A stretch of DNA of 64,000 nt from Meloidogyne chitwoodi (taxonomy: Eukaryota > Nematoda > Chromadorea > Rhabditida > Meloidogynidae): assembly GCA_015183035.1 (NCBI GenBank), contig JACZZP010000007.1:1922001-1986000 (forward strand), in the 5' to 3' direction. Below the pieces are notes generated by a model that was not told the DNA's origin, searched no databases, and saw nothing but the letters and a program-made list of their open reading frames with translations. A program made the translations under genes and the position numbers. Positions 29,718 through 64,000 of the stretch are shown here, in pieces; position 1 is the stretch's first letter; each line of letters begins with the position of its first letter.

Positions 29718-32709
29718 ATGTTAATTCTATTTCTGATAAATTTGATTTTTTTACTTTATTCTGTGAGTGGAGAAAAAACAAAACAAATCGCTGAGATTAA
29801 AAAAGGTAAATAATTTTATTAAAATTATTTAAGCAACATAATTCGAATAAATCCTAGAAAATTGTTTTAAGGAAGCATTTCATTCTAATATTTAAAAAAT
29901 TAATTTAAAAAATTTTTTTTCAATAGAAAATGTTTTGCAAGGACCCAAAGCCCAATTTATTCAAGAATATGAAAAAATAATTGAAACATTTACAAATATT
30001 TTATTAAAAAATAAATACAAAGTAAATGTCCAAATTGATGAGGCAAACGATAATAAACTAAAAATTAATACAACTTTATTGTTTAAAATGTTATATGAAG
30101 AAAATGGTTCTTCTAATTTTAAACAACTTTTGTCAACTTTAAATGAGAACAGTCTGGAGAATTTTAATTCATTGTAATTTTAATTAAATAAACATTCTTT
30201 TATCTGGGGATAATTAAATAATAATTAGATTAAGTCAATAAATCCTAAAAAATTAATTGAAAAGCCATAATACATGCTACAAAATTAATCAATTTCATGA
30301 ATAAGTTTATCCAATAAAATTTCATTTTATCGAAAATATTGAATTTAAGTTTTAATGGTTTAGGTCTTAATTAAGAAATTTTAAATAAATAATTTTTAAA
30401 AAGAAATATAAATTAAAGTCAACCTATAACGATATCCAATGAATACATAGACCATTATATCGTTATAACAACTTAAGTTTAGAGCTTAAACTTTATTTAT
30501 TAAATTTATTTAATAAATATCATTTAAAATAAAGTAAATAATAATTTAAAATAAATAATTATTTTTTAAATTTAAAAAAGGTTAAAAAGTCAAAATGAAA
30601 GTTTAAAAGATGGTCTTACTCAACAAAATATATTAAAACTCTGTTCACTTTTTATTCAAACAAAATATTATATTTTAGCTTTAGAATTGAATAAAATTAT
30701 TGAAAAAGAAAATAAAGAAATTGAAAATATTTTAGAAATTTCTTTTAAAGAATTATTGTCTACTGACTGTATTGGAATGTTAATTGAACAATTTGGATAT
30801 AAAAATATTGATCAATTTAAATTAGAAATTAAAGGAATGATAAAAATGTATTTTAATTGTAAGTTTTTTTTAAAAAAAATATTTTTAAAATTTAATAAAT
30901 TAAATAAAATATTTTAATAAAAAATACTCAAAAAAGTCTCTTAATTTCTAATTTTAAATTATTTAAAAATAATTTAATTCAGCTTTTGAAGTTGAAAATA
31001 TGAGGCTCATCAGCCTCCAACATTAACGGCTTTTTACAGATTAGGTTTTTCAAAATATCATACAGGGGACGTCTTCCACATCCTCTCATTAACTGAGTCG
31101 TCCCCCATTCCTTCCTCTACATTCCTTTATAGTTCGAAAGCATAAATTTATATTTAAAAATATTTAAATTATTTTAAATTATTTAAATTATTTTAATTTA
31201 TTTAAATATTTTGTCAGTATATCCAAATAATGAGAAAACATCAAAATGTGTTGACGAATAGAATGAAAAATCTGTTTGGAAGAGTTGGAATCCTGTTGAA
31301 ATAATTAATTATTATTTTAAAAAAATATTTAATTTTTATAATTGTCAAATAAATTGGTTTTTTAAAAATAATTTAATTGATAATTCTTCTAAAAAACAAA
31401 TTAATTTATATTTCAAAAATATACGTCCTTTTGTTTTTGGAGAAATTAAAAGAGAACAATTTGTTTTAAAAATTTATAATTATTTGAATAAAAATGGAGA
31501 AAATTTGAAAAAAGAAATTGTTGAATTTTTAGAAATTTTATCTGATGATTTGAGAGAAGCTAAAATAATGGAAAATATGAAAACAAAATTTTTAAAATTA
31601 TTGGAAAAATTTTTAAATTTTTCAAACATTTTTAAAATTGAAGAAAATGAAGAAGAAATTAAATTAAAAAGCGAATTAGAATTAATTGAAGAAAATAAAT
31701 TTGATAAAAATAATCTTTCCAATTTTTATAAAAAAATTGGAGAAAAATTTAAAAAAATAGCAAATTCATTTAAAAAATATTTAAAAGAAAATAAAAAAGA
31801 AATTACTGTAGAGATTGATTGGATGAGTATAAAAAGCTGTTTTGAAGCCAATAAGGTATGAACTGACTTTTTCTAGTGAAATTCCTGCATAGTTAGAGTA
31901 TTTTTTTAAATTTAAAATTTCGTAATTTATTTTAAAAAACATTAGACACAAACCTAATTTTGTAAAAATAATTCGTACTCAAATGCCCTGTATTTTTAAT
32001 AAATGTTCTTATTCTCAAAATTTTTAAAATTTTAACATTAATTTTAGAAAAATGATTTTAAAACAAATTTGACTACATTAGTACGTAAAAAACGTAGAGG
32101 TTCACCATCTAGTTCCAGCAGCTCCAGCCGATCAACAACAATAATAATAGTAAATAACGGTTATAATGGAAAACAGGTTCTTAAGGAATATATAATGGTA
32201 GCTGGAGTGATTGGTGGAATTGGATGGATTGTTTTAAATGTTTGGATTCCTTTTAAATATTTTTTTGAATATGATTGTTCATCATGGTTACCACAATGTT
32301 TGCGGTCTCGTAGACGTAGATCTGTTAATTATAATAAAAATCAAGGTAAGAAATTTTAAATTTTAGAAAAAATAAATAAAATAAAAATTTCATTTAAAAT
32401 TTTTAAAAAAATAAAAACTTTTTTCTTTATAATTTTTTTAATTTTTTAACAGAAGAGAATTGTCCACCAACCAATAAACAATTAATTACAGACAATAAAA
32501 TGTTTATTTTAATGATAACAAATGGATGTCTTAATCCTCCTAAAAATAACAATAATAATTGTGTTGATTCAAAGCTGAAAAACCGAAAAAAACGAAGTAT
32601 TGAAAGTGTAATGAAAGAATGTGGAGCAATACTGGCTTTGGTGTGGAGTTTAGTTAACATTGTTGGAGCTATCTTTTGTGAAGTTTTATTAGGTATTTAT
32701 TTGTTTTGA
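29718..32709 (+). pseudogene. Family gene A: helical secreted/membrane protein with one in-frame stop
   Basis: Six exons, 29718-29805, 29927-30173, 30581-30858, 31218-31855, 32048-32345 and 32453-32709, total 1806 nt with every junction GT-AG and in phase. A signal peptide (MLILFLINLIFLLYSVSG) is followed by a Lys/Glu/Asn-rich helical region. Next come RKKRR, a Ser-rich patch, a hydrophobic segment (VIGGIGWIVLNVWIPF), RRRRS, a Cys-containing module, RKKRS and a final hydrophobic helix. Exon positions and phases match gene B. Codon 219 (31259-31261) is TAG, so the copy is either dead, polymorphic or read through. The rest of the frame shows no decay. Family not recognised. Confidence 0.6.
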
Positions 32710-33116
32710 CAAATTATAACTGTTTTTTTTATGATTTGGTTAAGCAAAATATGAAAATTAAGAATGGGGTGGTTATCTGGATTTTTTTGAAATTTAAAAA
32801 AATTTTTTTTGAAATTTTAAAAAATTTTTTTTGAAATTTTTTGAAAATTTTTTTGAAAATTTTTTGAATACTAAAACAATAGCTAAACCCTTTTCTGACC
32901 TTTCTATGTCTACAAAAAAAACTTCGCGCAATTTTTAAGCGCCAGCCCTGGCATAAATAAATATATTTTTATTTATTTATGCCTGTGGTTAACCTTTCTA
33001 AATTTTTTATTAGCAAAAGAAATGTTTTTAGAAATTTTTACTTTTTATTTTTTCTATTTTTTAAATTTTAAAAATTATTTTTGATTTGTAATTTTCATCA
33101 ATTTTTAAATTTTAAA

Positions 33117-33610
33117 AAACTCTATTTAGCAGTTTTATAATTTTACAGTGTATTAAAAAATATTCGAATTTATTTATTTAAAAAAATATCTTTTTCTGTG
33201 ACCCTTTCTTTTTTTAAATTTATTTTTATAGCAATGTTATTTATATTAATTTAGTTATTTTTTAAATTTAATTTTAGTTAACTAAAATATATTTAATTTA
33301 AAAATACCTATTAATTTTATTATTTTTACCCGTATTTATTTTAATATAATACCACTAAAATAACATCAATTATTTAAAAATAATTTCAAAATGCTGCAAA
33401 TTGTTCTAAAACATTATTTAAAATTTAATTAATTAATTATTTCAGTACAGAAATAAATAAATTAAAAAATACATTACTAAGGTATTATTATTAGAATAAA
33501 TACAATATTTTTTATTATTTTGATTTTTTTCTAATTTTTTTATAAAAATTTTAGTAATTTTAGAATTTATTATTTCTTTATTTGATATATTTTTTATTTA
33601 AATTTAGCAT
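33117..33610. repeat. Duplicated block, copy 1 (inverted copy at about 61100-61520)
   Basis: About 400 bp nearly identical to the reverse complement of 61110-61510. Shared landmarks are TACCCGTATTTATTTTAATA, AAATGCTGCAAATTGTTCTA and TTTCAGTACAGAAATAAATA. Only a few substitutions and small indels are visible. It lies about 0.4 kb downstream of gene A. A shorter related piece (TCTGTGACC) occurs near 35020. Confidence 0.85.
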
Positions 33611-33956
33611 AAATTTTTTTTCGGTAAATTGTCATTTCGAATATATAAGTATGTGTATTTGTCAAAAAAAACTTTTCCGTAAAAACTGTAAGGATAAAAT
33701 ACAAAAGTACCTTTATCACTTTTTGTCGGGTTAAATAAACTGTTTAAATAATTGGGTTATTTTTCTTCAGAATTTATTCTACTGGCCCCCCTTTATTTAA
33801 TACTATATGAATTAACTCATATAATTATATTTAATCTTAACTGTTAAATATTTTTATATTTTTTTTATAATAATAAACAGGAGGAGCAATAATTAAATTA
33901 TTTTCTTTATGTTTTCCAAAAGTACTAAAATATTATTATAAATTTAATTTTTGGAA

Positions 33957-34641
33957 TTAAAAAGCCAACTCTGTAATATTCTTGTATATGCAACATAAAG
34001 TATCAAAAACATTATCATAAACAGAATTTAAAGGATCTGCTTGCTATAAAAAATTAAAGCAATTACTTGGTATTAAAAATTTTAATTTATTTTTTACCAT
34101 ATAAATAAGAGATGAGTAAAGTATTTGTAATGTTTCCTCAATCTCGTTGGGATAGTTCAATTTGTCACATGTCCATGTACTTGTGTTGGATATAACTGGG
34201 ATTCTACCAAAAGATTTTGCAATACTAAAAAGTACAGTCAGTCTCCACATCTTTAATAAATGTAAAATTGTTAAAAACTAACATTTATTAGAAATAAAAA
34301 CTCACTTGATTCGCAAGGCCTCCACAAGCTCCATTCCAATTTTTAGGTATTTGCATAAGTAGGAACTTTGTATCATTATTAATTATTGGGAAAACTAATG
34401 GCAATTTTATACTAATATTGATTTGTTTGTTTGTTTTAAAATTGATATAAGACTTTTATTTATATTTTGTTGTTTAGACTCAATTGAATATGGAAGAAGA
34501 TATTTTTCTAGAAATAATAATTGTTATTTTCAAAAAAGAAAATATTTTAATTTTTATAAACATACCTGTATAGAAATATTGGCAAACAAAAGCTAATGCT
34601 AAAAATATAAATACAAACAAGATCAATCTACGTAAATCCAT
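33957..34641 (-). pseudogene. Truncated alpha-1,2-fucosyltransferase-like gene (GT11) with frameshift
   Basis: The Met at 34641 starts a type II membrane anchor (MDLRRLILFVFIFLALAFVC), as in Golgi glycosyltransferases. Downstream exons 34306-34452 (or longer), 34098-34250 and 33957-34043 encode ACGGLANQ then MWRLTVLFSIAKSFGRIPVI. This resembles the GDP-fucose-binding start of GT11 enzymes. The coding frame breaks inside an AAAC microsatellite at about 34425-34440: a one-unit length change would account for the shift. The reading ends after about 150 codons, half of a normal GT11 enzyme. I judge it a remnant, though a spliced functional form cannot be excluded. Confidence 0.45.
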
Positions 34642-35195
34642 TTATTGTCTAAATTTAATCTTGTAAATTTTAATAAATTACTTTTATGTTTAAATAAATT
34701 ATATTAATTTTTTTAAAGAAAAATTTTATTATAAAATAATTCGAAAATATAATGAAAAGTAAGTTGGGAATATTATATATATAAGAAAGGTTTATTTTTT
34801 TATGCGCTCAAAAGTCGGGAACTCTTTTTTTATATATATTTTTTTTATTTTTCCTTGTTGCTCCTTTTTCTTTGCTTGTGGCAAGTAGTGTAAATATTTT
34901 TTATTTCTGATTTATGATTTTCAGAGTTTTTTTAGTTTTAAAAATATCTGTTTTAGCAATTTTTATTTAGATTGTGAATTAAAACAAAGTCCGAATTTTT
35001 ATTTTTTTAAATACCTTTGTCTGTGACCTTTTAAATTTATTTTTTAAAATTATTTTCTAAAAATTTTAAATAAATTTATATATTTTTTTCTCATAAAAAA
35101 TAACATTGGGATATTTAATTTCACAAAACGGATTAAGCACTCCTCCAATGAATCATCTATAATTATTTTTTAATATTTAAATTGTAAGGCCTCTG

Positions 35196-35753
35196 GGTAC
35201 TTTTCCGTTATGCGTACAAATGTCCGCAAGTTTTTGTCTGCTAAAAAATTTAATATTTTTCTCAAAAGGATTATTTTTTAAAAATAGTTATGTGCATGAG
35301 CATAGTTCCCACAACTATTATAAATAAATTTTTTGGTATATAAAAGGTATTAAGTTTTTTGAATCTATAAAATTCTATTTTACAAAATGATTACAATTAT
35401 AAAAAATTGCTTTCTAAAATACCTGATGAAACCCAACAGCAAAATTTCTTCAAAATTGTGGAATTCTACATAAGGAACAAGTTTGTTATGGTAATAGAAT
35501 GGTTCCGTTTGAGATGAAAAATCGTGAAAAACTTATCCCTAAGTGGCGTTGTAGTTCGTGCCATGGCCAAAAAGGTGTTCGTCCTGATACCTGGTTAAAT
35601 CCTTCAAAACTGCCGCTTGACACCATTGTTGAATTTATTTATTAGTGGTCTCGCGAAATTACTTTAATTAAATTTTGTGAGTTTGAACTTGGAATGAATG
35701 AAAAATATTAAATTTTTTAGCAGACAAAAACTTGCGGACATTTGTACGCAACC
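35196..35753 (+). mobile_element. Merlin/IS1016-like DNA transposon remnant with 8-bp target duplication
   Basis: The inverted ends contain GCGTACAAATGTCCGCAAGT and continue through TTTTTGTCTGCTAAAAAATT on both sides. Just outside lies an 8-bp direct duplication GGCCTCTG (35188-35195 and 35754-35761). The interior encodes KWRCSSCHGQKGVRPDTW and SKLPLDTIVEFIY followed by a stop and WSREITLI. This resembles the N-terminal zinc region of IS1016/ISXO2-type transposases. An 8-bp duplication suits Merlin elements. The transposase is a short fragment, so the copy is not autonomous. The left end carries about 12 extra bases relative to the right. Confidence 0.7.
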
Positions 35754-36103
35754 GGCCTCTGTTCGTGTGTTATGTACTTTTTTTATTTTATTATGTAATC
35801 TTTTTCCTAGTCTTTTCTTTCATTAAATAAATTAAATGTAAATAGTTGAACTTTCTCAATATGCGGCACTTTGATCATCTAAGACATGTGAAAATAATTA
35901 ATATATTTCGAAAAGTTAAACTACAAAAAATATTAAGAAGTAAAAATTGAATTATGAAATTTAATAAATTTTCATGTGCGCCTTTCTTTAATTTTCTCAA
36001 TATAAAAATCGGTTATAAATTAATTTAATTAAATGCACTTTATTTAAGTAATTTAATTAAAAATTTAAATTTAATTTAATTTAAAAATAATTTTTAGAGA
36101 AAT

Positions 36104-39100
36104 ATGTTTAAATCATTTCTTTTAATAAAATTAATTATTTTATTAATTTATTTTATTAAACAAATATTAAGTAATGAGGAACTTGACAACATTTCTTCCA
36201 AAATTGATGAAATTGATAAAAATATAATTTTAAAAATTACTCAAAATTTTAATAAAATTAAAAAATGTTCAATAAATCCAGAAAATTGTATAAATATATT
36301 TTTTAATGAAATGACCATTTTTGATGAATTGACACGTTTTAAAGGAATTTTTAGTTTTTGTACTAATGAAGGAAAGAATAATTATAATGATGAAGAGATA
36401 ATAATTAATGATCCAATTACGGTATTTTATTTAATTTAATTTTAAAGGGGATATTTTTATAAATATTTAGAGTCTTTTTTTAATTTTTAAAATTAATTAA
36501 AGTGTTTTATTTTTTTTATTTTAAGTAAAGATCTTTATAATATTAGCCTTATACCTAGTTAATTAATAAAATAGAGAATTGGGTAAATTCAATTAATTTA
36601 ATAGATAATCGATTCTTTGAAATTTTAAAATTCTTAATTAAAGAGTACATACATCTCCCAATAATTTAATATTTATTTAAAAAATAAATAAATATTTAAA
36701 ATTACTTAAAAAATAAATAAATAAAATAATTAATTAAATATAATATTTAGCAAGTAATAAATAGCAAAACAAAAAAAGAAGCAATTGAAAAATCAAATAA
36801 ACAACTTTGGGGATATATTAATTGTATTAATAAATTATTTATTGAAATAAAAAATAAAAATGTAACTGAAGGTCTTTTTCAAATTAAAGAAGAAAAAACA
36901 ATTTCAAAATATTTGGAAATTTCTCAAATTTATTCAAATCTTCTCAAATCTTTTTTATTAACTAAACCTTTATTTATTGCATTAAATATTTATAAATTTA
37001 TTAAAGAAAATGATTTTAATAATTTATTAGAAATTATTTGTACACAAAATTTAGAAGAATTAAAATTGTCAATTAAATTAATTAATGTTCTTTATCCAAA
37101 ATTTAAAAATATTAAAATTGATTTTAATAATTCTAAAATTAAATTTAAACAAATTTCAAAAAATCAAAAAGATTTTGAAAAAATTGAACATTTTTTAAAT
37201 TGGCGTTTTGACCAAAAATGTGTGGAAAAACCAATATTTGAAAAGGTAAAGAATTAAATAAATATTTATTTATTTTTTTCAATTTTAGCCTACATTTATT
37301 TCCAAAATTATTAATAAATTCAAAACATTTGAACAAAATTGTTCAGAAAATCCTAATCTTGGTGATTACATGGAAATTTTAGAAAATGAAGAAAAATCAA
37401 AAGAATATTTATTTTTTCGTTTAAAATGTTCAATAAATATATTAGAATCAAAAACATCATTAATAAATAATGCTGAAGATAATTTAATTAAAATATTAAT
37501 ACTTTCGAATAATTTAAATATAATTAAATCAATTAAAGAAAAGAAAATATTTTTAGAAAAAATAAACAATACAAATTTTAATCTTTTAGGGTGGAATGAT
37601 AATATATTTAAATATGCTTTTAAAAGAATTTTAAATTTGGGTAAAAATATTTTTTTTATTTTTTTAAAAATTGCTCTAACTACTACTATTAATAATATAG
37701 TAGAGGTTACGGAACAGAGGTTTTTCAAATTTATTAAAATTTATCCAACTCCAACTTTTTTTCTTATCTTACGGTATAACCCTTTGTCTCAGACAGACTT
37801 TTAAATTAAACTTTTATTTTCTTTTTATTATTTCAGAAAATATTTCTGAAGAATTATCTTACTCTAATTTTATTCAAAACTATGGAGAAAACGTTGAAAC
37901 ATTTTCAACTTTATTAGCAAATAATAACTACGAAATTAACGTTCAAATTGACCAACAAAACAGTCAATTAATAATTAAATCAGAAAAAATGATTAATTTA
38001 TTAAATAAAATACCCGGTTCTATTATTTTAATAAATATTCTTGATAATTTTGGAAAAAATAAAAATTACAAAATATTTCAAGATTTAATAGAAAATAAAC
38101 AAGAAATAATTAAAAATAAATTAATTGAATTTTTTTCAAATTTTATTCAAGCAAAATATTATGCTTTAGCTTTAATATTAAAACAAATAGTAGTTGTAGT
38201 AGAGGAAGAAGAAAATAAAGAAAAATCAGAAAATATTTCTGATTTATTTGAAATTAAAAAGTTAATTAAATTGGATATTTCAGAAGAAGAATTAAACAAA
38301 ATTGAATTAATTAATAATAATTTTGTTAAAATTGAAAGTTTATTGGAGAAATTGTCAAATAAATTATTTGATAATTGCAATGGAATAATAATTAATAAAT
38401 TTGGATATAAAAATAAAAATGAATTAATTTTTAAATTAAAAGAAGAAATGAGCAAAATTATTGCAGATTTGGATTTTAAATGTAAAAAATATTTTTATAT
38501 TAATTTTAGCAAAAGCAAGAGAAATGTAACTTACTCTGTGCTCTCTGCCCTTGTCTCTTCTAACTAATTAGCCTACATTTTTTATTTTAACATAACTTTT
38601 TTTTAAATTTATATAAAAATATGAACTAAACTCTAAAAAATAAATAAAAAATTTAAATTTATTTAAAAATTGAGTTTAGAAAATTTGGCCAATTTTTGAG
38701 AAATTTATAGCAAAATTTTGAATAAGTAGGCGATCACCCAAATAATTCTCTGAACGACCCTGAAACGAGTAATTTATTAAAATTTTTTTAAATATTTTTC
38801 TTTAGTAAAATATAGGTTAATTTAATTAAAAAAATTTTTTTTTTAGTAAGCGGAGATTCTTCTGATAATTTTAAACCAGAATATATTAACTTAAGAGCAA
38901 TGCCTCTACCAATATTTAATGAAAAAACAACATTACTTGATAATTTAATTTTTAAAATATTTAATTATTTAAATAAACCAATTAAATGGATTGGAAAAAA
39001 GGCTTTAAACAGTAAAAATAAAATATTTCAAAAAATATTTAAAAAAATTAATTTATTATTGGAAGACCTTAATTTTTTTATAGAAAGAAAAACTTCTTTA

Positions 39101-41243
39101 GAAAAATTCTTTTTACCCTTGTATTATTTTGAGAAAAAATTTGGAAAAATTTTATTTAAAAAAATAAAAAAAATTTTTGAGAATTTTGTTAAAATTAATT
39201 TTAGAGAATTTGAAATGACAGAGAAAATAAAAAGTGATTTTAGTGAATTATTTGATTATTTTGTAATTTTTGGTAAAACAATTAAATTACAAGGAAAAAA
39301 TTCAGAAGAAATAGAAAATTATATAAATCAGGCAATTAATTATAAAGAGAAAGGAGAAGAAAAAGGAGAAGAAAAAGGAGAAGAAAAAGGAGAAGAAGAG
39401 AGAGTACTTGAAAATGAGAGAGACAAAGAAAATAAATTAAAAGAAGAGAAAAATGATTTAAAATATTTTAATTTCAAAAAAGATCAACTTGAAAAAAATT
39501 TAAATGAAATAATTTCATTTATTAAAAATATTTCGACTTCATTAAACACAAATTTATTTAAAAATTGGATTAAAGAGGATAATAATAAAAATAATGTTTG
39601 GGGAAATTTAAAGGAAAGTAGTAGTAGTAATTGTTTTTTTAATGGAACAAATGTAAGTTTTTAAAAATAAACTTTTTTATAAATTCCAAATAGTGATGGA
39701 AAAGTTTAGGAACTGGAACTATGGGACTACCAAATTTCTGGAACATGTTCCGAAACTAATTCCTAAAATAAACTAGTTCCGGAACTATGAAAATTAAAAA
39801 TTCAGTTCCACAACTGGAACAGCAAAAATTCAAAAACAAGTTCCGGAACTGGGACCGATTCCTTGGAAATTTTGAACTTTTTCCATCACTATTTCCAACT
39901 TTAAGAAAAATTTTATTTTTTTTTCGAATATTAAAAATTGAGTAAATTATGGGAAAGGTTGGGGTACTTTACCTTAATTTAGCTTAACAATAATTTTTTG
40001 AATTTTCGAAAATTATATCCATTTTATGTAAAAACTCCATTTATTCGCAAGAAAATATTTTATTGTTCAAATCAATTTTTCTGATAAAATATTTTCTTGC
40101 GAATAAATGGGTTGTACAAATAAATTAGATTCCAAATCCCTTTTTAAATATAAAAAAAAACTTTACAAAATTTAAGAATATTTCAAAGTCATATTCAACA
40201 TTATTCTTAAGAAGAAATAAAAGAGATGAGCCAGAAGATCAATTACCAGATCAACCTCCATATGCATCACCAACTGTAGAGCCTTACTATAACGGATATT
40301 ATGTTTATAAACCAACAAGAGCTGCACTTTTTCTTTTTGTAATATTGGAAAGTTACCTTTTATTTCTTGGTTGTTATTTGTCTATCAGATATATTAAACC
40401 AATTCAATGTCCTGTACCAAATTTTCGTGAAATTCTGTTTGGTAGACAAGAATCTCTTCCAATTCTTCCACAACAACAACAAAACCTTCCTCCTCAACAA
40501 CCTAATAATAATAATAATCAAAATGAATTGGAAGCTTCTTCCAGTGGAATTGAATTACAAACAACACAACCTGCAAGATATGCTGTAGTTGATGCACATG
40601 GACAGGCACAACATTTGGCAGTTCCCAGTCCTTTTGTTCAACAAAATCGTAAACGACGACATCTTGATGGAATTAAAAATGGTTTAAAAATTTTTTAAAA
40701 TATTTGAAATTTTTTTGTTGTCCACGGGTAAATCTAGATTTGTCAAAAAATACCTTTTGGAAAAATACCTTTTTTAAAAAGGTAAAATCCTCAGAAATTC
40801 TCTAAAATTGTTAAAAATTAAGGGAAAAAGTGAAATTTAAAATTTTGCAAAAATATAAAAAGGTTTAAACACTGAAAAAGAGATCAATTAAATTAATACC
40901 CTTTTAGGGAAAAATAAAAAAATATTAAAATAAATATAATTTATTTATTTAATTTTTAGAAGAAGAAGATGTCAAATGTCAATGGAAAGGAACAAATAAA
41001 AAATGTCCAAATCTTCCTTTTGAAATAAGTTTTCATAAAAATGATGGCAAAAATTCAATATTTAATTTAATTAATAAAGGATGTTTAAATTTAAATAATA
41101 AAAAAGAAAAAATAATAAAAAACAGAAAAAAAAGAGATTTAATTATTTGGGTAAATTGTGGAGTTTGGCTTGCTTATGGAATTATTACTCTTCTTTTAAT
41201 TCCTTATATTATAACCATTGCTTGGGCAATTGCACATCTTTAA
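36104..41243 (+). CDS. Family gene B: large helical secreted/membrane protein with basic cleavage-like sites
   Basis: Seven exons, 36104-36421, 36751-37245, 37289-37640, 37837-38481, 38847-39652, 40129-40681 and 40960-41243, total 3453 nt (1150 residues), all GT-AG and in phase. It has a signal peptide (MFKSFLLIKLIILLIYFI) and about 850 residues of Lys/Glu/Asn/Ile-rich helical sequence with a KGEE repeat. Then come RRNKR, a hydrophobic helix (ALFLFVILESYLLFLGCYL), QCPVPN, a Gln/Pro/Asn-rich linker, KRRHLD, a Cys module (CQWKGTNKKC), RKKR and a C-terminal hydrophobic helix. The exons from 37837 on correspond to gene A and the last two to gene C. No known family recognised. Processing by a furin-like protease is inferred from the repeated basic sites. 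Confidence 0.8.
39691..39891. repeat. MITE-like element in gene B intron
   Basis: The ends TAGTGATGGAAAA and TTTTCCATCACTA are inverted. The interior carries repeated GGAACTGGAAC and AGTTCCGGAACT motifs. About 200 bp, no coding potential. Confidence 0.6.
40037..40110. repeat. Perfect hairpin in gene B intron
   Basis: The arms 40037-40062 and 40085-40110 are exact reverse complements (CCATTTATTCGCAAGAAAAT...). A 22-base loop separates them. It is probably the remains of a small foldback transposon. Confidence 0.7.
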
Positions 41244-48342: not shown

Positions 48343-50600
48343 TTAATTTACTACGTCAATTTCTTCTTCTTCATCCTGTATAATACTATTTTCTAGTTCT
48401 TTCAGAATACTTGGAGTGCTATGCAATTCAAGAAAGTTCATTGCAGCACCAAATTTATTGCTGAAAAAAAATTTTTTATTTCTTAAAATATTAAAATTTC
48501 TTTTGATAGAATAATAGAAATAATAAAAAAATTAAAAAAAACCTCCATTCAATAGACTTATTGAAAGAATCAGAAATAGCAGGATATCGTTTTTGTAATA
48601 GAGAATCCAAGTCAGGAAGTGTGTAATACTTTGTAGAAATGCCCAATTTACTGAAAACTGGACCTTAAAAATTTTTAAATTAAATTAAAATCTAAAAAAT
48701 TAGAATTTTCTCACCAATGCTAGAATATAGTTTAAAGCAAATTTCTCTAGGAAAAGCAAAAGCAGGAGAAATATATTTAGGACAATCAATTTGATCAAAA
48801 CAACGTTGAACAAAATAGAAATTTGTGAGATTAACCATCTAACAAAATAAAAAATGTAAAATTTTTTAATAAAATTTACCCAATAAACTTGATGAGCGCG
48901 ATGTTCTCTTCCTCTACTCATACAATAACGGGAATTATTTAACTAAAAAGTAAAAAAATTTTTTTTTAATTTTATAATTTTGCTAACTTTATATTGAAGG
49001 CTGTAGTAACGATCACAAGAAAAAACTCCGTTAGTTTTAGACATAGGAACTGAAGCATCTTAATTTTAAAAAATTATAAAAATAATTTTTAAAAATGTGG
49101 ATGACATCAGAGAAAAATCAAGGATTTTTCTTATACCTATTTTTTACGAAAAGCTAATTAATTTCTTTGTTTTTTTCTAAGCTTTTTCAAGAATAATTAA
49201 TTTATAAAAAAACCTCCTACTAATATTTTCATTCTTGGATTCATTAACATATACACAAATAATACACCACATCTTAATATCAGCACGTGGATTAAAACGT
49301 CGAAAAATTCCAAGCATAAAAGTATCTAAGAAGGGGAATGGTGAAGATGTGCCTTGTCCACTAGCCAATTCTTCTATTTTTGAATAAAATTTTCCAGAAG
49401 TCGATGGATAACTAAAAAATTTTAATTTTTTAATACTAAAAATAGAAAAAAACTGACTTGTTAACTTTCAAAGGAACCTTTGGAACAGAAAAGCTAGTAG
49501 AAGGTTGATTTTGATCATTTTCTTCTTCCCAATTACTCCTCAAATCCAAATTATTATCGACAGTTAAAAAAGGCTCTATCCCTCCGTTAATTCCACCTGA
49601 ACATTTTCTTCTTAGTGCTTCAACAGATGTATTAAGTGCACAAACAGCAGGTAGAGAGCCTAAATTGATTAGCCCAAGTTTATCATAACCGTAAGGAATT
49701 ACGAGTGAATCGATAAATATTTGAGCATTTTTAGGTAAGGGATTTTCTGAAAAAGTTACATTATTTAACATAAAAAAATAATAATAAAAACCTCCATAAA
49801 AACTACAATAATCTGCTAATTTTAAGGCAGTGTCCTTTCCACATTTACTAGACTGGAAAATTCGAAAGTTTCGATTTCTTGTATAAACGGCAATATCACA
49901 TAAAAATATTGGAATATCTCTAAATCCATTAAGTATACAACTATTCGATTTGAGCAAATTACTGAAAATTTTATACATTATGATGTTAAAATTTGAAAAG
50001 AAACATCTCAATAAACCTAATTTTATTAATGAATTAAAAACCTGCAAATATACATAATAATAGTTTTCAAAGCCAAATTATTCGGAAAAAGGCGTTCTTC
50101 TTCTCCATCCTTCTTAACATGTACAATAACGTGTGAACTGAACTTTGTGTCATTTGAGGAATCCAAAATAAGAAAATGTTTGTCTGGATTTAAATCAATA
50201 TTTAAAAGTGAAAGCAAAGAAGAGCAAACAATTGTACAAAATTCTTTAGTTAAAGCAGGTCCATTAGCTTCTTTATTAACATCATAAGGGAATTCAAGAT
50301 CAAAATATAAGCGACAAGGATAATCTTCCAAAATAAGTTCATAAAAATGTTTTAGCTCTGATGCACATTCACGGTACCACAAGTAAAAGTCACGAAGTTC
50401 CGCAGCGATAAATCTGCGAGCACCTGAAATAAAAAGTTTAAGAACCTATAAAATTAAAAAATAAGACCTGGTTTAAAGTGAACATCCTCAAAAGAAAATA
50501 CACGCGCATTTGGAGACTTTTTCGACTTCATTTTATTTATTGCGTTTTGTTGTAGTGCCTCTATAGGAAATTTTTTGAGCAATGGACTGATAACACTCAT
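48343..50600 (-). CDS. PRIMPOL: PrimPol, DNA primase-polymerase
   Basis: Archaeo-eukaryotic primase enzyme that reprimes stalled replication forks in nucleus and mitochondria. Ten exons: 50468-50600, 50042-50423, 49792-49961, 49458-49746, 49221-49411, 48988-49058, 48880-48942, 48715-48838, 48543-48663, 48343-48460. Total 1662 nt (553 residues), about the family length, all phases closing. Motif I is RLYFDLEF (D86, E88), motif II SSH (140-142), motif III DIAVYTRNRNFRIF (D194). The C-terminal zinc region has YCMSRGREH and RCFDQIDC as Cys/His ligands. The last residues are acidic (QDEEEEID), like the RPA-binding tail of the family. TTTCAG three bases before the ATG suggests SL trans-splicing. 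Confidence 0.9.
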
Positions 50601-50815: not shown

Positions 50816-51045
50816 AAATTAATTAAACGTTCGATCTTTTTTTCTATTTTATTTTTATTTTCTACATTCTAGATGTTCTAATGATTAGAGACGAGACACA
50901 TTGTTAAAGGCCTCCACCAACTTCTCCATTTCTTTCGCCTTGTGACCATTGTGTCACTGACCATTTTGTCGTGATTTTGGACAAAATGATCATTTTCTTG
51001 ATTTAATAATTTCTATGTTTCATCGTTCTAGTATCTCAATTAAAA

Positions 51046-54897: not shown

Positions 54898-55837
54898 ATA
54901 TTTTTTTAGAAAATTAATTTTTATTATTTTTTATTAAATTTTATTTTTGCCTTGTTATATGTTCTTTTTTCTGTGCATTTCAGAAAAGAAAAAATTTTTT
55001 TTTTTTAATAAAAAGATTGTTGCCAAAATTAATTTAATTTTAAGGATTTAAAAGGAGAGATTATGTTTATCTTTAAGTAAATTATTTTATTAATTTATGC
55101 TGTCCTCTAAGATTAAAAGAAAAAAAATTTAAAAAAAAAATTCTAAAAATTCAAAAAAAACATGAAAAATAAAAAAATAAATTTAAAGAAAAAGACAAAA
55201 AAATCAAAATTAGTATACTTTTGTATTATTAAAATTTATAAAATTGAGTAAAATATTATTATTATTTTAAAAATAATAAATTTAATTAATAAAAAGATGA
55301 AAAAAAATTTTCTTTTAGTTAAATTTTTTTTCGATGATTCTCTATATTTTTGCATAAAAATATACTCAAAAATTAAAAATAATTTTTTATATTTTTATTT
55401 TTCTCAAATTATATTTTTTTTTGGCCAAAGATTCTTAATAAAAAAATATAAAATTGATTTTTAAAGACACGAGTCTTTTTTTATTTAAATTTTTTTCTTC
55501 CCTAAAATTCTTTTTCCCTCTCTTATTTAGAGGTGTGGATAGAACAATAGAAAATAAATTAATTTTTAGAGGGCAAATTAAAAAAAAATCCCATGCCAAT
55601 TTCTTCTTACCACCTCCCTCTCCTCTCCCCTCTAAAAATATTTTTTTAAAAATTCGATCGTTAGCCTTTCAAAACCCGTGGAAATTCCTCACATTTAACT
55701 TAATCCCTCCCTTTTTCTTCCCTTTAAAAATGCCATTATTGAAGAAGTCAATCATTCCACTTAAAAAAATTTAAATTTCCCTCTCTTATTTATCCTCTTC
55801 ACACTCTTACCTTATAAAAAGGTTAGGCATTGCTTTA
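54898..55837. other. Intergenic
   Basis: AT-rich with a pyrimidine-rich patch at 55600-55730 just upstream of the phosphatase gene. An open frame here has no coding character. No feature supported. Confidence 0.4.
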
Positions 55838-58641
55838 ATGTTTTCTTATACAAATTGGCTAGCCAAACATTTATTTAAAATTGTTTTAATTTTATCAATA
55901 TTTCCTCCTTTTATTACAACATTTTGTTTTGATTCGAATATTCACAGTAAATTTAAAAATTTTTTTAAATTTAAAACAAATTTTATTAAAGATAAACATT
56001 ACGTTTTTCCCCGAACTAATGAATACGATTATGATATTTGCTTTAATGTTGTTGGTTATGAGCAACTCTACTCTTTTGACTTTTTACTGATTGCAGATAT
56101 TGGAGGTAATTAAATTTGAATATGTATTTTTTTTAATATTTTGGGGAGATAAAAGGTTATAGGCAATAAAAAACCGAAAATTTTCTATCTAATGGTGTAT
56201 ATAAAATAAAAGTAATAATGGCTGGACTAACTGAGAGTGAAAAATAAAAATATAGAAAAATAAGAAAAAAGGTCCTTAAATGTTTAGAAATTATCCCTTT
56301 GGTTAAACATAAAATTTCAATTTTTAGACAAATGATTTTTAGGTAATCCGGTTATAAGTACATCTTAATATAACTGGCTTCTGTGTTTATTTTTTTAAAT
56401 TTATTGAGAAAAAATTTTAATCAATTTTTTAAATTAAAAATAAAATTAATTTAGCTTTATTTTAATAAAAAAAATTAAAATTTTATAGGAGTAGAAGTAA
56501 CAGATGAAAGTGGTAAAATTATTGGTCACATACCATCAAAAGGGCAAATGAAAGTAGCAAAAAAAATGATGCAACTTAAAAATAATAACTACTATTTATT
56601 TAAAGAGAATCAATTCATCCCAAAATTTGTTTTAAATTTGGGAGATAATTTTTATGATAGTGGTATTGGCCCAGAAGAAGCAGAAGAGCGTTTTTATAAG
56701 GTTTTTTTTCCTTTTTTTAATTTTTAAAAAATAATTTGTTTTTAGACATTTCTTCGTGCTTACGAACAGCTAGGATTGACTTTTAACTCAATTCCCGGTA
56801 ACAATGATTACAAAGTGCCTGACAAGAAAAATAAAACAGCTAATGAAATATTTGAAATAGCTAGAGGACGTGTACATGCACAAATTAATCTTACTAATAA
56901 TCACAGTAATTTGTGGTTTGTATTTTTTAATTGTCTAATAAAATAAATCATTAAAATTAACCTTTTAATCCCAAAATATCTCTTTTACAGACCCAAAACA
57001 TTTTGGGCTAAATTAACTGAACGGTTGGACGCACCCAAAAATTACCAAAAAATAAATGAACACTAAAAACCTTGAGAAAATAAATACCTATTAGTTGCCT
57101 AAAAATCCATGCCTAAAAAACACATGGGACTGACCATAAATTTTTATATAAAATTTTTTCTTATATATGTAGAGTCTATATTATTGAGTTTCTTTATTTA
57201 TTTATTTTTTTTAAATTTAATTTAAACATTTTTTAGGTTTTTTCCTTCTGAATATTATGTTCTCAAATACGAAATGTTAAACTTCAATATAGTTTTTATA
57301 ATGATTGACACAACTTTATTATGTGGAGGATCGCGTAAAGAGTCTGTTGCATTACAAAAAGAAGATACTTTGGAATATTCTAAAAAATCAGATAGAAAAT
57401 TAGCACAAGAAAAACATTTTAAATGGTTAGAAGAAGTGCTTTCTAGAGATTACAGCAAGTAATATTTTTAATTTAATTAACTCTCGTTATAAGGACACCC
57501 AAAGATATGTCCTTATGACCCACAATAATGTACTTAAGGTCTTTGGATGTTTTATATGTATAAAATTTTTGTCTTATCCCAGTATCCTTATAACGAGAGT
57601 CAGTCCAGTTAGGTGTCACTATAACCGGAGTTTACTGTATTTTTGTATTTTTTAGAGAAGCTGATTATCTATTTGTTGCTGGTCACTATCCTGTATATAT
57701 GGCTGAAGGTGATAGAGCATTTACTTGTTCAAGTAGATTACAAAATTTGTTTTTTGAGCATAAGGTTTGAAATTAAATATTTTAATTAAAATATTTAATT
57801 TAATAAAATATTTTTCTTTAATTTTTTTAGATTAGTGCATATTTTTCTGGACATGAACATTCTCTTAAACATATTCAGGTTAAACACAAAGGAGGGACTC
57901 ACTTCTTTGATCAAATAATTTCTGGCGGTGGAACAAAAGTAGAAAATTGTCTTCAACAAAAACATGTTTATAGCCAATTAAAAAATTATTTTAAAAATTT
58001 TGCGCCAGACTTCAAAATTTGGTAAAATTTAAATTTTTTTTACATTGAAGAAATTAATTTCAAGAATTATTAAATAATAAAAATTTATCTAAGAAAAGTT
58101 TTTCAAACGGGCAGGTTCGAACCTGATACCCTCCAAAATAAAATCAAACGCTTTACCAACTTTACCACCATAACACATTCTCATTTTATACACCTTAAAC
58201 TATCACAAAATTGTGTATTTCTAATTAAAAACAATTCTTGGTTTTTTTGAAAAAAGATTAATAAATAAAGTAAAAATAAAGTTTAAAAATTTAAATAAAA
58301 ATATTTTTATTAAATTAATTAAATATTTTAAAATATAATTAAGCTATCCTGCTGGCTTAAATGAAGAACAAATAAATGAAAATTATTCATTAAAAAATAA
58401 CGATCTAACGCAAAAAACAAATTTAGAGGTAAACATTGAAAACACAGAAAATCATGTTAAAAAAGAAAAATTGAAAGAAAAATTAAAAAATTTAGAAAAT
58501 AAATTGGATGAGGCATCATATGAAAAAGGAGGTTTTATTGCTGTTCAAATAGATGAAAATTCTGCTAAATTTAAGTTTTTACCTGTTGGTGGTGTGATGA
58601 TGGATAATCATGATTTTATTGAAATTGAAAAAAGAAGTTAA
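55838..58641 (+). CDS. Purple acid phosphatase, tartrate-resistant (ACP5) type, secreted
   Basis: Binuclear metallophosphatase that hydrolyses phosphate monoesters. Seven exons, 55838-56105, 56489-56700, 56746-56915, 57237-57458, 57656-57764, 57831-58021 and 58344-58641, total 1470 nt (489 residues), all in phase. It has an N-terminal hydrophobic leader. Metal-site motifs appear in order: LLIADIGG, NLGDNFYDSG, PGNNDY, VAGHYPVY, SGHEHSL. The third is normally GNHD, so the histidine is replaced by asparagine. The chain is longer than typical members (about 320-450) because of an N-terminal extension and a charged insert in the last exon (KEKLKEKLKNLENKLDEA). A tRNA-like piece and a MITE lie in its introns. 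Confidence 0.85.
57481..57640. repeat. Mariner/Tigger-like MITE in phosphatase intron
   Basis: CTCTCGTTATAAGGA at 57481 is mirrored by TCCTTATAACGAGAG at 57586. A further CCGGTTATAGTGACACC-type end (reverse strand) reaches CTGTA at 57640. It lies inside the intron 57459-57655. Non-coding. Confidence 0.55.
58105..58190 (-). pseudogene. tRNA-like remnant in phosphatase intron
   Basis: Read on the minus strand: GGTGGTAAAGTTGGTAAAGC then GGTATCAGGTTCGAACCTG. The T-arm is perfect and the D-arm plausible. The acceptor stem and 3' end do not pair convincingly. Likely a pseudogene or SINE head. Confidence 0.35.
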
Positions 58642-59590
58642 GTGAAGAAGTTAAGAATATTTAAATTATTTTACGTAATTTATTTTTTTTTTTTAATTCT
58701 GTTGATGAGAGAAACATTTTTACCCATTTAATCAGGGCAATCAGATATGCGGATTTATCATAATTTTGTGGTTTTTTAGGATGTCAATGCGTATTTTTTT
58801 TAGAAGATGCGAATTTTTGGAATTTTGTGTGTTTTTTTTTTGAAATTTTTAAAAATTTTGGTGAAAAGATGAATTTTTGGCGAAACAACGAGTATAAAAA
58901 ATCTTAAAAAATTTAGCCTGCGGCGCAGAAAAAGTGAATTTTTCCTTATTTTCGAATTTTTCCAATAAACTTGAGTATTTTTTATTTTTTCATCTGACTA
59001 CCCTGTATTAAATTAAATTGTTCTTTTGTATAAATTTATTTCCTATTTTTTAACTATTTATCCAGTAAAATTGTAAAAAGAATTTTTTTATTACCAATTT
59101 GTACACTTTTTTAAAAAACTATTTATTATTATTTTACTAAATATATTTTGCAATTTTTAGCAAATAAAAATTAAAAAATGTTTTATTAATATATTAAAAT
59201 TAAATATAGTAAGTAAATTTATTTTTAAACAATTTTATTTAATTAATAACAGTATTATTTTTCTCCAAAAAATTAAAAAAAAATTAAAAATAATTGAAAA
59301 ATAAAAGTAATAATTTAAAATATAAATAAATATTATAAAAAATAAAAAACAGTTAGAGGGAACTTTAAAAAATAAATTAGAGGAAATATCCCTCAAATTT
59401 TATAAATTTAATAATTTATTTAATTTAATAAATCCTTAATTTAATTGTTTTTATTCCCCCAGATTTATCATTATTTTATTAATTTAATTAATTATTTATT
59501 TTTTAATTAAATAACTTTAATTGAGATAAAGAATAAGGTATATTTTAATTAATTTAAAAAAATATCTTCAAACAAAAATATATTCTTTTT

Positions 59591-59996
59591 TTATTTTCCT
59601 GGTCCTGGCCTCTTAAAATTAACAATTTTAATTTTTATAAAATTTTAAAATTAAAATAACCTCTGCAGGACAACCTCCATTAATTTCATCGCAACCATGA
59701 TTACAGCAACTAAAAAATTTTTTAATTAATTTTAAGTTAAAGAAAAATATTTATTTTTTATAAAAATTAGGGTAAAATACTTTAAATAAAAATAAAAAAT
59801 AAATTTTATTAAAAAATAAAATTTACGTAGTAGCAAAGTCTGTACGATATCCATTATCTGGACTTATAAAACAACATTGTTGAAATGATCTATCACAATT
59901 ACAATTAACTTTTCCAGAAATTTGAGAAAATTTGTTTAAAAAAATAAATAAAATAATAAAAAATGTTAAAAATAATTTAGTAAAATTTTTGGACAT
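59591..59996 (-). CDS. Small secreted cysteine-rich peptide
   Basis: Three exons, 59827-59996, 59661-59709 and 59591-59611, close in frame to 79 residues. The N-terminal hydrophobic leader (FTKLFLTFFIILFIFL) should be removed on secretion. That leaves about 50 residues with eight cysteines in the order CNC...CC...CC...C...C (NCNCDRSFQQCCF, TCCNHGCDEINGGCP) and a RPGPGK tail. Eight cysteines suggest four disulphides and a toxin-, defensin- or effector-like fold, but I recognise no family. If the 49-nt last intron is not removed, the tail becomes VILILKFYKN instead. Confidence 0.6.
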
Positions 59997-60506
59997 TTTT
60001 TTTCTTTCAAATTTATTTTTTTTAACTCTAAAAATGTGTCATTTTATATATAGTTTTGGCTATTTTATGACTTTTTTTCTTTTTTTTATGAGTTAAAAAA
60101 ATAATTGTGCAAAAATATTTTTTTAAATAAATTATTTGATTTGCTAAAATATTATTTTATTTTATTTTTTTTATTTGCTAAATTTATTTAAATTTTACTT
60201 TTATTTACATACCAGTTTATTTGTTTAAAAAACTTTTTTGTTTTTAATTTTATTGATAAAAACGAAAAAATGATTTTTTATTTATTTAAATATTATGTAA
60301 AAATGTTGTGTTTTGATTTTTAAAATTTTTAAAAATTCATAACTTTTTAAAAATACATAATTAATCAAAATTATATAATTTTTAATTTATTTTAATTTCA
60401 TTGTTAAAGCTTAAAAAATTAAAAAAAATATTTTTTTACTTTTCAGCAATAAATAAACGTAAAAAGTTAATTTTAAAAATTAAAAAGACTTTTTTAGTTA
60501 AAAAAT

Positions 60507-60534
60507 GTTAAGATCCGGATATTCGGATCTTAAC
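60507..60534. repeat. Perfect hairpin
   Basis: GTTAAGATCCG, a six-base loop, then CGGATCTTAAC. It stands out in AT-rich intergenic DNA. Possibly the remains of a small transposon end. Confidence 0.5.
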
Positions 60535-61099
60535 AAAAAAATATTTTTATAAAAAATTAATGAATTTTCCATTTTTAAATATTTTTTTCTCTTGCCAAAC
60601 ATTATTCTTTCTTTTCCTTAACATATTTCTCATGCTCTCTCTTTATTACATCCTTTATTTTCTTTTAAGTTGATTCTAGCATACGAAAGGGACCTGTACA
60701 CTTCGTCGAAATGACATTTTGCCACTACAAAAAATCTACATTTATATACCCGAGCACATAGTTTTTTGCCCTTGGGACAAAATGTCGTGCAATTTTGTTC
60801 GACGAAATGTCGAGACAAGATCGAAAGAGATTATAACGTATAAAAAACAATTTATCTTGTTCAGTTTAATTACATTTTTTAAATTTTCAAAACAAAAAGT
60901 AAACTTTAAAATTTTCTTCTGGGAAATAAAATGGTGAATTTTTGGCAACTAGAAGACAATTAATTTAAAAAATTTTGTTGTTGCACAAATATGCGTATTT
61001 CAAATTTTCGGATCGGATATCAGGCAATTCCCTAGGATCCGACAACCTTACCCTATACTTAATAAATATTTACAAAATATTTTAAATTAAAAAATTTTA

Positions 61100-61520
61100 T
61101 GCTAAATTTAAATAAAGAAAAAATAAATTCTAAAATTACTAAAATTTTTATAAAAAAATTAGAAAAAGTCAAAATAATAAAAATATTGTATTTATTCTAA
61201 TAATAATACCTTAGTAATGTATTTTTTAATTTATTTATTTCTGTACTGAAATAATTAATTAATTAAATTTTAAATAATGTTTTAGAACAATTTGCAGCAT
61301 TTAAGAAATTATTTTTAAATAATTGATGTTATTTTAGTGGTATTATATTAAAATAAATACGGGTAAAAATAATAAAATTAATAGGTATTTTTAAATTAAA
61401 TATATTTTAGTTAACTAAAATTAAATTTAAAAAAATAACTAAATTAATTTAAATAAAATTGCTATAAAAATAAATTTAAAAAAATGAAAGGGTCAAAGAT
61501 AAAGATATTTTTTTTAAATA
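61100..61520. repeat. Duplicated block, copy 2 (inverted relative to 33117-33610)
   Basis: Near-identical over about 400 bp to the reverse complement of the block downstream of gene A. It lies about 0.5 kb downstream of gene C, which is on the minus strand. Both paralogues therefore have the block at the same side and in the same relative orientation. Confidence 0.85.
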
Positions 61521-61734
61521 AATAAATCCTATAATAATCTAAAATAAATATCTACACTAAATCCTTTCTCTTCTTTTTTTAATTTTTATTTGTTTATATT
61601 TTTTATGTAGGAATAAAATATTAATTTTTAAATAAAAATTATCATTAAGATACCCGAAAAAAATTTATGCTAATTTAAAATAAAAAGAAAATGTACAAAT
61701 GTTTTACTTAAATGAGTTAAAAAATTTAATTTTT

Positions 61735-61950
61735 TAACTTTTTTTTTTAATTTATATTTTTTTTTTAATTTTTAATTTTATATTTTTTTTTTAATTTTTT
61801 ATTTTTTTTTAAATTTTATTTTTTTATTTTTTTTTAAATTTTATTTTTTTAATTTTTTTTAATTTTATTTTTTTTTTAATTTTTATTTTATATTTTTTTT
61901 TTAATTTTTTATTTTTTTTAATTTTTTTTTAATTTTAAAAAATAAAAAAA
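61735..61950. repeat. T-rich low-complexity tract
   Basis: About 200 bp of runs of T broken by AATTT, with imperfect periodicity of TTTTTTTTAATTTT units. A simple repeat with no coding content. Confidence 0.8.
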
Positions 61951-62041
61951 AAGGTCTAAAAATCTAAAAAAGTAACTAAATAGGATGACTATAAAATAAA
62001 AACATTTTTTTTCATTTTCATAATTTAAAATAATTCTCTCT

Positions 62042-64000
62042 TCAAACGTATATTTTAATAAGAACATATCCTATAATCCACATAAAAAAGTTGGCCAAAT
62101 ACCACATCCAAGCTAGCCATTTTCCACAATTTTCCCAAGCACTGCGAAGATCACGCTTTTTTCTTTTAGAATTTAATTTTTTATTTTTTTTAAAAATATT
62201 AAAACATTCTTCGTTTTTTGGAGAAAATATATAATTTGCATCTTTTTTGTCAAAACTTATTGTATTTGGACAATTTTTAATAAAAGTTGAATTATTTTGA
62301 CATGAAAAATCTTAAATATTTAATTAGTATTATTTTTTTTAATTTTTATTTGGTAAAATGTTAAGGTTTTTAACCGAAAAAACCGACCGACACGTTTGTC
62401 AAGGCTCTAATAAAAACCAGCCAAATAAAGAATAAAAAGATTATTTGAAATTTAAAGAAATAATAAAAAAATTTCCCTAAGCATTTGCTGGGAATAATTG
62501 AAGGGAACCTTCTTTTCAACTTCTTACATGTAGGGTCAGTAGGACGGGGAAGGATTAACGGGGAACGGGGACAAGAAACTTTACCGAGAACGCGCCCGGG
62601 AATGGGGGGAGATAATTAATTGTCGGGGACAACCATATGGGAACTCTTTATGTGATTTTTCTAGTCAAAAGTCCAGCGGGGGAACGGGGACAAACCCTAC
62701 TTACAAAACTATATCCTTTTTTGATCAAATAAATTATAATTATTAAAAAGAAAAACAAACCGTTTTGTATATTTTTAGTACTTCGACGTGAACGAATATT
62801 TTGAAAATAATTTTGTTGAAATTGGTTAGAATCTACTGGTATACCTACAACGGTAACTCCCATTGCAGGGTTTTGATTATTTTGACGAACAGGGTATCCG
62901 GTTATATTTTGATAATTAGGGCCACTTGGTTGAGGAGGGAAAAAATTATTAAGTTGTTGTTGTTGTTGAGGAATTGTAGGTGAATTTTGTCTTCTTCGCA
63001 AAAATTGGGGTAATTGAATATCATTTAATTGAATTTGGGGTAAATTATTATTTGGAACAGGACATTTTATGTCATAAATAATTCCTTTAGAAACGTAATA
63101 ATTTAACCAAAGCCAAGTAATTCCTCCAACAGTATACCAAACAATTATAGTATCTTTTTTAGTGCAATGATGATAAAAACAATGATTATAATAACGTTTT
63201 TTGCGTATTAATTGTTCTGAATATGTTTTTGATGTTTTCTGAAAATGTTGAACTTTTAAATTTTAATTGAATTTAAATTAAAATTGATAGGAATGGGATC
63301 TTACGGGAATTAATCCCGAAAAATCTATCAAAAAATTCGGGAGTTCGGGAGAAGGGATATCTCCAGTGTTTACTTTAATTTGACAATCCAACCCTGAATT
63401 TTATGAAATTTTTTAAAATAATTTTTTAACACGTCCCCTCCCTAAAACGGATATGGATAAAATATTAAACAGACTAAAAAATAGCCTAAAATTTAAACAT
63501 TAAATATTAAAAATTTAAACTAAGAGATTCGTCTCCGTAGGACGGGGAGGGGGAACGGGGACGAGAAATCCTTCCGAAGACGAGCGGGGATGCGAAGAGA
63601 AATTATTAATTGACGAGTGCAATAAACCATTTTTTGATTTTTATCAATTAAAAGCCCAGCGGGGGAGCGGGGACAAGAAAGAACACTAATTTAAACATTA
63701 CCTCTACTTTATCATCAAAACATTGTTTTATATTTGAAAATAAATTAGTATCCGAAGTAAAAAAATCTTCGCTCTTTTTATTAATAAATTTATCTAATAT
63801 TTCTTTAAGATCCATCAAATAATTATTTTTATTTTCTTCACTTTTTTCTCCAACTTTTTCAGTCTCATCTTCAAATAATATATCTATTTTTATTTCTTTT
63901 GCTTCATTAAGCAAGATCTCTTTAATTTCTTCAGATTTTTTATTTTTTAAATTTAAGGTCTTAACAAAAATTTCAATAAACGGAAATAATTTTTCAAAAT
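62042..64000 (-). CDS. Family gene C (5' end beyond the window)
   Basis: Three visible exons: 63702 to beyond 64000, 62761-63238 and 62042-62310, in phase. The first visible exon is Lys/Glu-rich helix ending NIKQCFDDKVE, matching the ends of the corresponding exons of A and B. The next encodes LIRKKR, a hydrophobic helix (DTIIVWYTVGGITWLWL), KCPVPN as in gene B, a Gln/Pro/Asn-rich linker and RSRRS. The last has Cys residues (FSCQNNSTFIKNC), KRKKRD and a C-terminal hydrophobic segment. The three basic sites fall at the same places as in A and B. No signal peptide is seen because the 5' end is missing. Confidence 0.75.
62539..62692. repeat. GC-rich intronic repeat, copy 1
   Basis: Lies in the last intron of gene C. 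It begins GTAGGACGGGGAAGG and ends CCAGCGGGGGAACGGGGACAA. It matches copy 2 at 63537-63680 in the same orientation and stands out from the AT-rich host. Confidence 0.65.
63537..63680. repeat. GC-rich intronic repeat, copy 2
   Basis: Lies in the preceding intron of gene C (63239-63701), beginning GTAGGACGGGGAGGG and ending CCAGCGGGGGAGCGGGGACAA. Same element as 62539-62692, with diverged middles. The shared ends give the likely boundaries. Confidence 0.65.

Follow-up and report, generated by a model that had tools for sequence, protein, structure and literature searches.

Closest described systems

Among described systems with a comparable layout, furin-primed viral-type fusion glycoproteins also combine a helical region, a basic site, and a hydrophobic stretch. 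The cuticle collagens SQT-3 and DPY-17, described as cut by BLI-4, have a basic site near a membrane helix, with possible shedding (PMC10538796), and map-1, as reported for the secreted families restricted to root-knot nematodes, is small, taxon restricted, and duplicated, with a secretory start (PMC3377709). Here we analyze a 64,000-nucleotide window of the root-knot nematode Meloidogyne chitwoodi (positions 1922001-1986000 of the contig that holds it, hereafter C28) with three related genes, A, B, and C, to which a fourth, D, is added from just beyond the window. These genes are like map-1 in the features listed above, but map-1 is described as expansin-like and secreted into plant tissue (PMC3377709), while A to D have two C-terminal hydrophobic helices and three basic sites. 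They differ from the collagens in that no collagen domain was found, in that the helices lie at the opposite end, and in having three sites; from the fusion glycoproteins they differ in the order of the parts.

A candidate family of convertase-processed precursors

With moderate confidence, we read A to D as members of a secretory-pathway precursor family, seen so far only in Meloidogyne, in which a cut at site 1 would shed the ectodomain and whose history would include an inverted duplication and gene conversion. A signal peptide would bring the chain into the endoplasmic reticulum (ER). The long form, represented by B, C, and proteins of Meloidogyne enterolobii, would then present a cysteine-rich N-terminal module of ~390 residues (N-module) followed by a Lys/Glu/Asn-rich helical body, and in A to D a conserved C-terminal part would follow, in which two hydrophobic helices are combined with three Arg-rich sites. 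A kexin/furin-type convertase would cut the lumenal site 1 before helix 1, shedding a large ectodomain and leaving a membrane stub; sites 2 and 3 would be either additional cuts or anchors of the membrane topology. The four M. chitwoodi genes would have arisen by inverted duplication, and gene conversion would have copied the N-terminal half between B and C, the remainder having diverged. The open-frame gene structures, the homology, the cluster, the near-identical tract, the M. enterolobii relatives, and the retained basic sites of A to C are shown, and the splicing, secretion, disulfides, cleavage, topology, and any role in parasitism are putative. If expressed in parasitic stages, these would be large surface or secreted proteins missed by effector screens that ask for no transmembrane helix; the cluster would also be a small case of inverted duplication plus half-gene conversion in a plant-parasitic nematode.

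Gene models and homology

Exon models were built from open frames, GT-AG sites, and phase, and the copies were then compared. The original prediction had described a three-gene family, modeled here as A (29718-32709, plus strand), B (36104-41243, plus strand), and C (minus strand, stop codon at 62044-62042). Its coordinates, frames, gene order, and motifs proved right, with GT-AG junctions and matching phases in all three genes, and A, B, and C are true homologues; the count was too low, since a genome search with the last exon of C located D on the minus strand at C28:2007929-2011544. The predicted splicing gives 6 exons in A, 7 in B, 8 in C, and 6 in D, those within the window being as follows.

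29718..29805, plus strand: A exon 1, start codon and signal-peptide-like helix, ends in phase 1
29927..30173, plus strand: A exon 2, body; 231/235 aligned bases match D exon 2
30581..30858, plus strand: A exon 3, body; 278/278 bases the same as in D
31218..31855, plus strand: A exon 4, body, with a TAG at 31259-31261
32048..32345, plus strand: A exon 5, site 1 (32084-32095), hydrophobic helix 1, site 2 (32303-32320)
32453..32709, plus strand: A exon 6, Cys module, site 3 (32584-32595), C-terminal helix, stop
36104..36421, plus strand: B exon 1, signal-peptide-like start, N-module Cys 1-3
36751..37245, plus strand: B exon 2, N-module; 48% identity to M. enterolobii protein P0001
37289..37640, plus strand: B exon 3, end of N-module; 43% identity to P0001
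37837..38481, plus strand: B exon 4, first part of body
38847..39652, plus strand: B exon 5, second part of body, Lys/Glu/Asn rich
40129..40681, plus strand: B exon 6, site 1 (40213-40224), helix 1, Gln/Pro/Asn linker, site 2 (40648-40659)
40960..41243, plus strand: B exon 7, Cys module, site 3 (41124-41135), C-terminal helix, stop
63702..64000, minus strand: C exon 6, portion within the window (whole exon, L013:202-857)
62761..63238, minus strand: C exon 7, site 1 (63205-63194), helix 1, linker, site 2 (62794-62783)
62042..62310, minus strand: C exon 8, Cys module, site 3 (62164-62153), C-terminal helix, stop

The start phases of the last three exons are 1, 0, and 1 in all four genes. A single exon of B encodes the first part of the body, which is split over two exons in A, C, and D. 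Spliced frames with GT-AG introns are open over 1150 amino acids (aa) in B, 1076 aa in C, and 606 aa in D; the penultimate donor is gtttaa in B and gtttgt in C, both atypical compared with the GTAAG type. The signal-peptide-like start previously noticed in A and B is present in both and is not limited to them, C having one too, outside the window (L013:4283).

In blastp comparisons of the spliced models, with the stop of A written as X, expect values (E) were 4e-13 for A-B, 1e-20 for A-C, 2e-11 for D-B, 2e-20 for D-C, and 0 for B-C. The search with the last exon of C, run against the whole genome (47,477,280 bases in 30 contigs), returned B at E 3.7e-9, D at E 5.4e-5, and A weakly at E 0.0085. 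The homology of A to D thus rests on blastp and genome-search similarity, which is more than shared motifs. A homologous body is common to the four genes (by blastp) and to two M. enterolobii proteins, P0001 and P0002 (by profile and alignment).

At the DNA level, the A-D pair is 86.7% identical over 2.6 kb and the B-C pair 91% over 2.0 kb, in each case on opposite strands, so that we read the cluster as a two-gene unit duplicated in inverted orientation. No other convincing copy came out of nine genome searches with protein queries, matches with E <0.01 falling solely in the C28 cluster, although a very divergent copy could be missed because the search scores the best candidates only. Six weak matches beyond the cluster (E 0.07-0.98) were treated as chance. 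Separately, a 420-base inverted repeat, 96.9% identical, occupies 33168-33583 and 61110-61527, beginning ~0.5 kb past the stop codons of A and C.

Relatives in Meloidogyne enterolobii

The original prediction had proposed a profile search with the last two exons; a B/C profile yielded relatives: among the best 7987 candidates scored in a protein database, it matched P0001 (811 aa; E 1.5e-126) and P0002 (617 aa; A0A6V7UX49; E 6.8e-109), both from M. enterolobii and 35% identical to each other. Both are uncharacterized, and no described family was reached. Judged by this similarity, M. enterolobii has at least two family members, and the family is not confined to the M. chitwoodi genome. The last-exon profile found nothing among 83 candidates, and D as the query found nothing among the best 7997 candidates scored; as the B/C profile found relatives where these two did not, the negatives are no proof of absence, and further relatives may be missed, the protein-database searches having scored the best candidates only. 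The family appears to be undescribed and has been seen so far only in Meloidogyne.

The N-module of B and C, with its eight cysteines, is absent from D and from the model of A. It is present in both M. enterolobii proteins, with 7/8 of the cysteines conserved in P0001 and 8/8 in P0002 and with 44% and 47% identity to C, respectively; its loss in A/D and its gain in the others are therefore both possible. A duplication of the N-module inside the body was unsupported (hhalign E 0.54). Residues across the exon 3/4 and 4/5 junctions of B are reproduced in P0001. Body identity is 0.43 for B-C, 0.40 for B-P0001, and 0.44 for B-P0002 (170 columns), by which the divergence of B from C may date from roughly the time when M. 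chitwoodi and M. enterolobii separated; a body tree, with supports of 53 and 58, gave no resolved branching.

That the family could not be named from its sequence held up in the domain and structure databases. Pfam gave nothing over the curated cut-off for nine exon pieces of A and B (best E 0.0033, B exon 7) or for full C and D, and nothing over the cut-off for P0001 and P0002 (best E 0.0005, over 16 residues of P0002). NCBIfam gave nothing over the curated cut-off for eight exons. A sequence search of PDB returned no match for C and a single, chance-like match for P0001 (E 0.078), hence no convincing relative. In the Meloidogyne literature on furin, convertases, and orphan genes, no paper on the family was found by title or abstract start, and none in the library searched cites A0A6V7UX49. 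A viral or retroviral-type envelope was rejected, no Pfam viral glycoprotein having scored over the cut-off in the nine A/B exon pieces or full C and D; among viral contigs, none of 599 pattern matches to the body exon and none of 600 to the last exon was confirmed.

These domain searches bear on another reading, that of a structural or matrix protein precursor, destined for the cuticle, eggshell, or gelatinous matrix, with BLI-4-type processing as for cuticle collagens. The combination of a helix with a basic site follows the same logic as in the processed collagens, but Pfam found no collagen or zona pellucida domain in the A/B exon pieces or full C and D, the helices are C terminal, and Lys, Asn, Ile, and Leu are abundant in the composition. 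We consider a matrix precursor quite improbable.

Basic sites and membrane topology

The three basic sites quoted in the original prediction are present in A, B, and C and are the sole places in these proteins where RX[KR]R occurs; D has the motif at sites 1 and 3 only. Residue shuffles gave 0.04-0.06 such motifs per protein on average, with three or more reached in 0/20,000 shuffles of A, 1/20,000 of B, and 0/20,000 of C, and the two of D in 19/20,000, fractions that are optimistic, as the choice of motif followed inspection of the sites, and nonindependent, as the genes are related. The RKKR of site 3 is the longest invariant run in the last exon (3/3 and 4/4 sequences) and is invariant in 4/4 genes while its Arg codons vary (CGA, AGA, and CGT); Arg codons vary between copies at site 1 also. 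We regard this as fair evidence that Arg is retained at these positions, as would suit a convertase. The genome has convertase P-domain matches at three loci, made up of six matches at the exon level. A Fisher test on Arg at P1/P4 (P 3e-6) was circular, the sites having been picked by Arg there, and was not used.

By hydropathy, A, B, and D each have one helix at the N terminus and two toward the C terminus. With both C-terminal helices spanning the membrane and the N terminus in the ER, site 1 would be lumenal and sites 2 and 3 cytosolic. Site 1 is thus the best convertase candidate and is rated as likely cut; sites 2 and 3, between the two hydrophobic helices, may face the cytosol and may or may not be cut. 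The retention of Arg, together with the conserved cysteines near the basic sites, argues against a cytosolic placement of sites 2 and 3. N-glycosylation sequons follow site 1 in C (three, two of them overlapping), with none in A, B, or D.

The distribution of charge admits a rather unlikely alternative, namely, that the basic clusters are positive-inside anchors of a two-helix hairpin and that the product is an uncut membrane protein with a large extracellular domain. The 30 residues before the last helix contain 7-11 basic residues in 4/4 genes, against 0 after it, a comparison limited by the mere 0-9 residues that follow this helix, and site 2 comes after helix 1, where a cytosolic loop is expected. 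Around helix 1, basic residues are more numerous after than before in A (3 before and 7 after) and B (2 and 4), but the bias is reversed in C (8 and 2) and nil in D (5 and 5); hence, the last-helix bias fits the two-helix topology in 4/4 genes, and that of helix 1 fits it in A and B, not in C and D. Moreover, despite a ~7- to 18-fold excess of Lys over Arg outside the sites, the sites end in Arg through codon changes, which charge alone does not need, and site 1, lumenal in the hairpin topology, would be left unexplained.

A stronger form of processing would have all three sites cut in the secretory pathway, so that the large ectodomain would become soluble and helix 1, the small Cys module, and the hydrophobic tail, which in C is rich in Trp, would each lie on a separate chain. 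These chains would form a multichain, convertase-primed, membrane-active or host-facing complex with an N-module swapped by conversion. This we hold to be improbable, marginally more so than the matrix precursor.

Probable gene conversion, and selection

Identity between B and C, taken per 100 bases, is 87-100% over ~1.9 kb (36,004-37,903), introns included, and 46-63% beyond.

36004..37903, no strand: B tract near-identical to C, putative gene conversion; 0.87-1.00 identity per 100 bases

The synonymous divergence (dS) between the two genes steps from 0.01-0.06 in exons 1-3 to 0.43-1.07 in exons 4-7. The DNA upstream of C resembles that upstream of D in three blocks (81%, 89%, and 95%), and C turns from D-like, up to the start of exon 1, to B-like thereafter. 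Conjointly, the near-identical tract, the dS step, and the switch in C indicate that the 5' half of C or B was probably copied over by gene conversion, in either direction.

Between A and D, exons 2-4 are 97.5-100% identical and introns 1, 2, 4, and 5 are 64.5-77.6% identical (with long gaps in introns 1 and 5), intron 3 being an exception at 97.5%; identities of the remaining exons are 82% (exon 1), 85% (exon 5), and 94% (exon 6). The conservation of exons 2-4 beyond that of four of the five introns favors coding constraint on these exons. Positive selection on A/D exons 5-6 is not claimed (65 versus 9 changes; Fisher P 0.03), because exon 5 holds a poorly alignable Ser-rich linker; P is 0.053 for exon 5 alone and 0.20 for exon 6 alone.

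In A exon 4, the TAG is in frame, and the frame of D is open at the same place; given this stop, A may be a pseudogene. The stop, together with an A/D ratio of nonsynonymous to synonymous divergence (dN/dS) of 0.97, would suit decaying, unexpressed duplicates on their way to becoming pseudogenes. We think this very unlikely for the family: the open frames of B, C, and D are 606-1150 codons long at a genomic GC content of ~25% (as given for M. chitwoodi race 1; PMC9871597), A/D exons 2-4 show the conservation just described, B/C dN/dS is 0.55-0.85 in exons 4-7, and relatives exist in M. enterolobii.

A number of observations weigh against a precursor that is processed and shed as proposed. The two-helix topology may place sites 2 and 3 in the cytosol, beyond furin. 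Hydropathy, with a cut-off of 1.5, was the sole guide to signal peptides and helices; helix 1 of C falls under this cut-off, which leaves one C-terminal helix of C over it, and an extra segment in the body of B exceeds it (residues 492-510, 1.56). Site 2 of D is without the P4 arginine. No basic site is present in P0001 or P0002, 2/2 of these models ending upstream of the site-bearing exons, and P0002, with an insert of ~25 residues at the exon 3/4 junction and an end before exon 5, does not bear out the junctions. Structure prediction, another proposed check, was run on the body exon and the last exon and gave no confident fold, with predicted local distance difference test (pLDDT) scores of 38 and 60, respectively, both below what a fold search needs; the last helix of A had block means of 82-90 over the final 24 residues. 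A is probably not translated whole, A/D exons 1 and 5 are barely better conserved than introns, and the overall A/D dN/dS gives no pointer to constraint on the whole.

Effector-like features and neighboring genes

In place of a shed membrane precursor, A to D could be a secreted effector family dropped by pipelines that demand no transmembrane helix, a rather unlikely reading in our view. Its occurrence so far in Meloidogyne only, the signal-peptide-like start, the diverged body (B/C, 43%), and the small secreted-like open reading frames (ORFs) that adjoin D would fit. According to an M. chitwoodi gland study, the key criteria in frequent use are the presence of a signal peptide and the absence of a transmembrane domain (PMC12614787), by which the family would be left out; against the effector reading, A, B, and D have two hydrophobic C-terminal helices and C has one over the cut-off, by hydropathy. 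The window has 14 copies of the dorsal-gland motif TGCMCTT, with 12.4 expected, hence no enrichment. It lies 64-70 bases upstream of the ATG of B, outside the peak reported at -350 to -150 in M. incognita (PMC8158474), and the same motif before C is in the copied tract; none occurs within 1 kb before A. By count and position, a gland-promoter link was unsupported.

The ORFs beside D are four similar short frames (L015:7961-8143 and 8731-8913, minus strand; L016:1524-1688 and 5820-5972, plus strand) with signal-peptide-like starts, three of them cysteine rich, which make up a second small secreted-like family. Between A and B, a possible small gene with a signal-peptide-like start, read by eye, lies at 34300-34640 on the minus strand.

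Elsewhere in the window, two overlapping frames at 49436-50445 (minus strand) may be primase-polymerase-like, an unconfirmed assignment for which Pfam gave nothing at E 0.001. A BEL/Pao-type retroelement at 14579-24985 (minus strand) has long open frames with Pao peptidase, reverse transcriptase, and integrase parts and also Phlebovirus G1/G2-like glycoprotein domains. A frame at 5481-5891 (minus strand) matches trehalase (Pfam E 9.8e-17).

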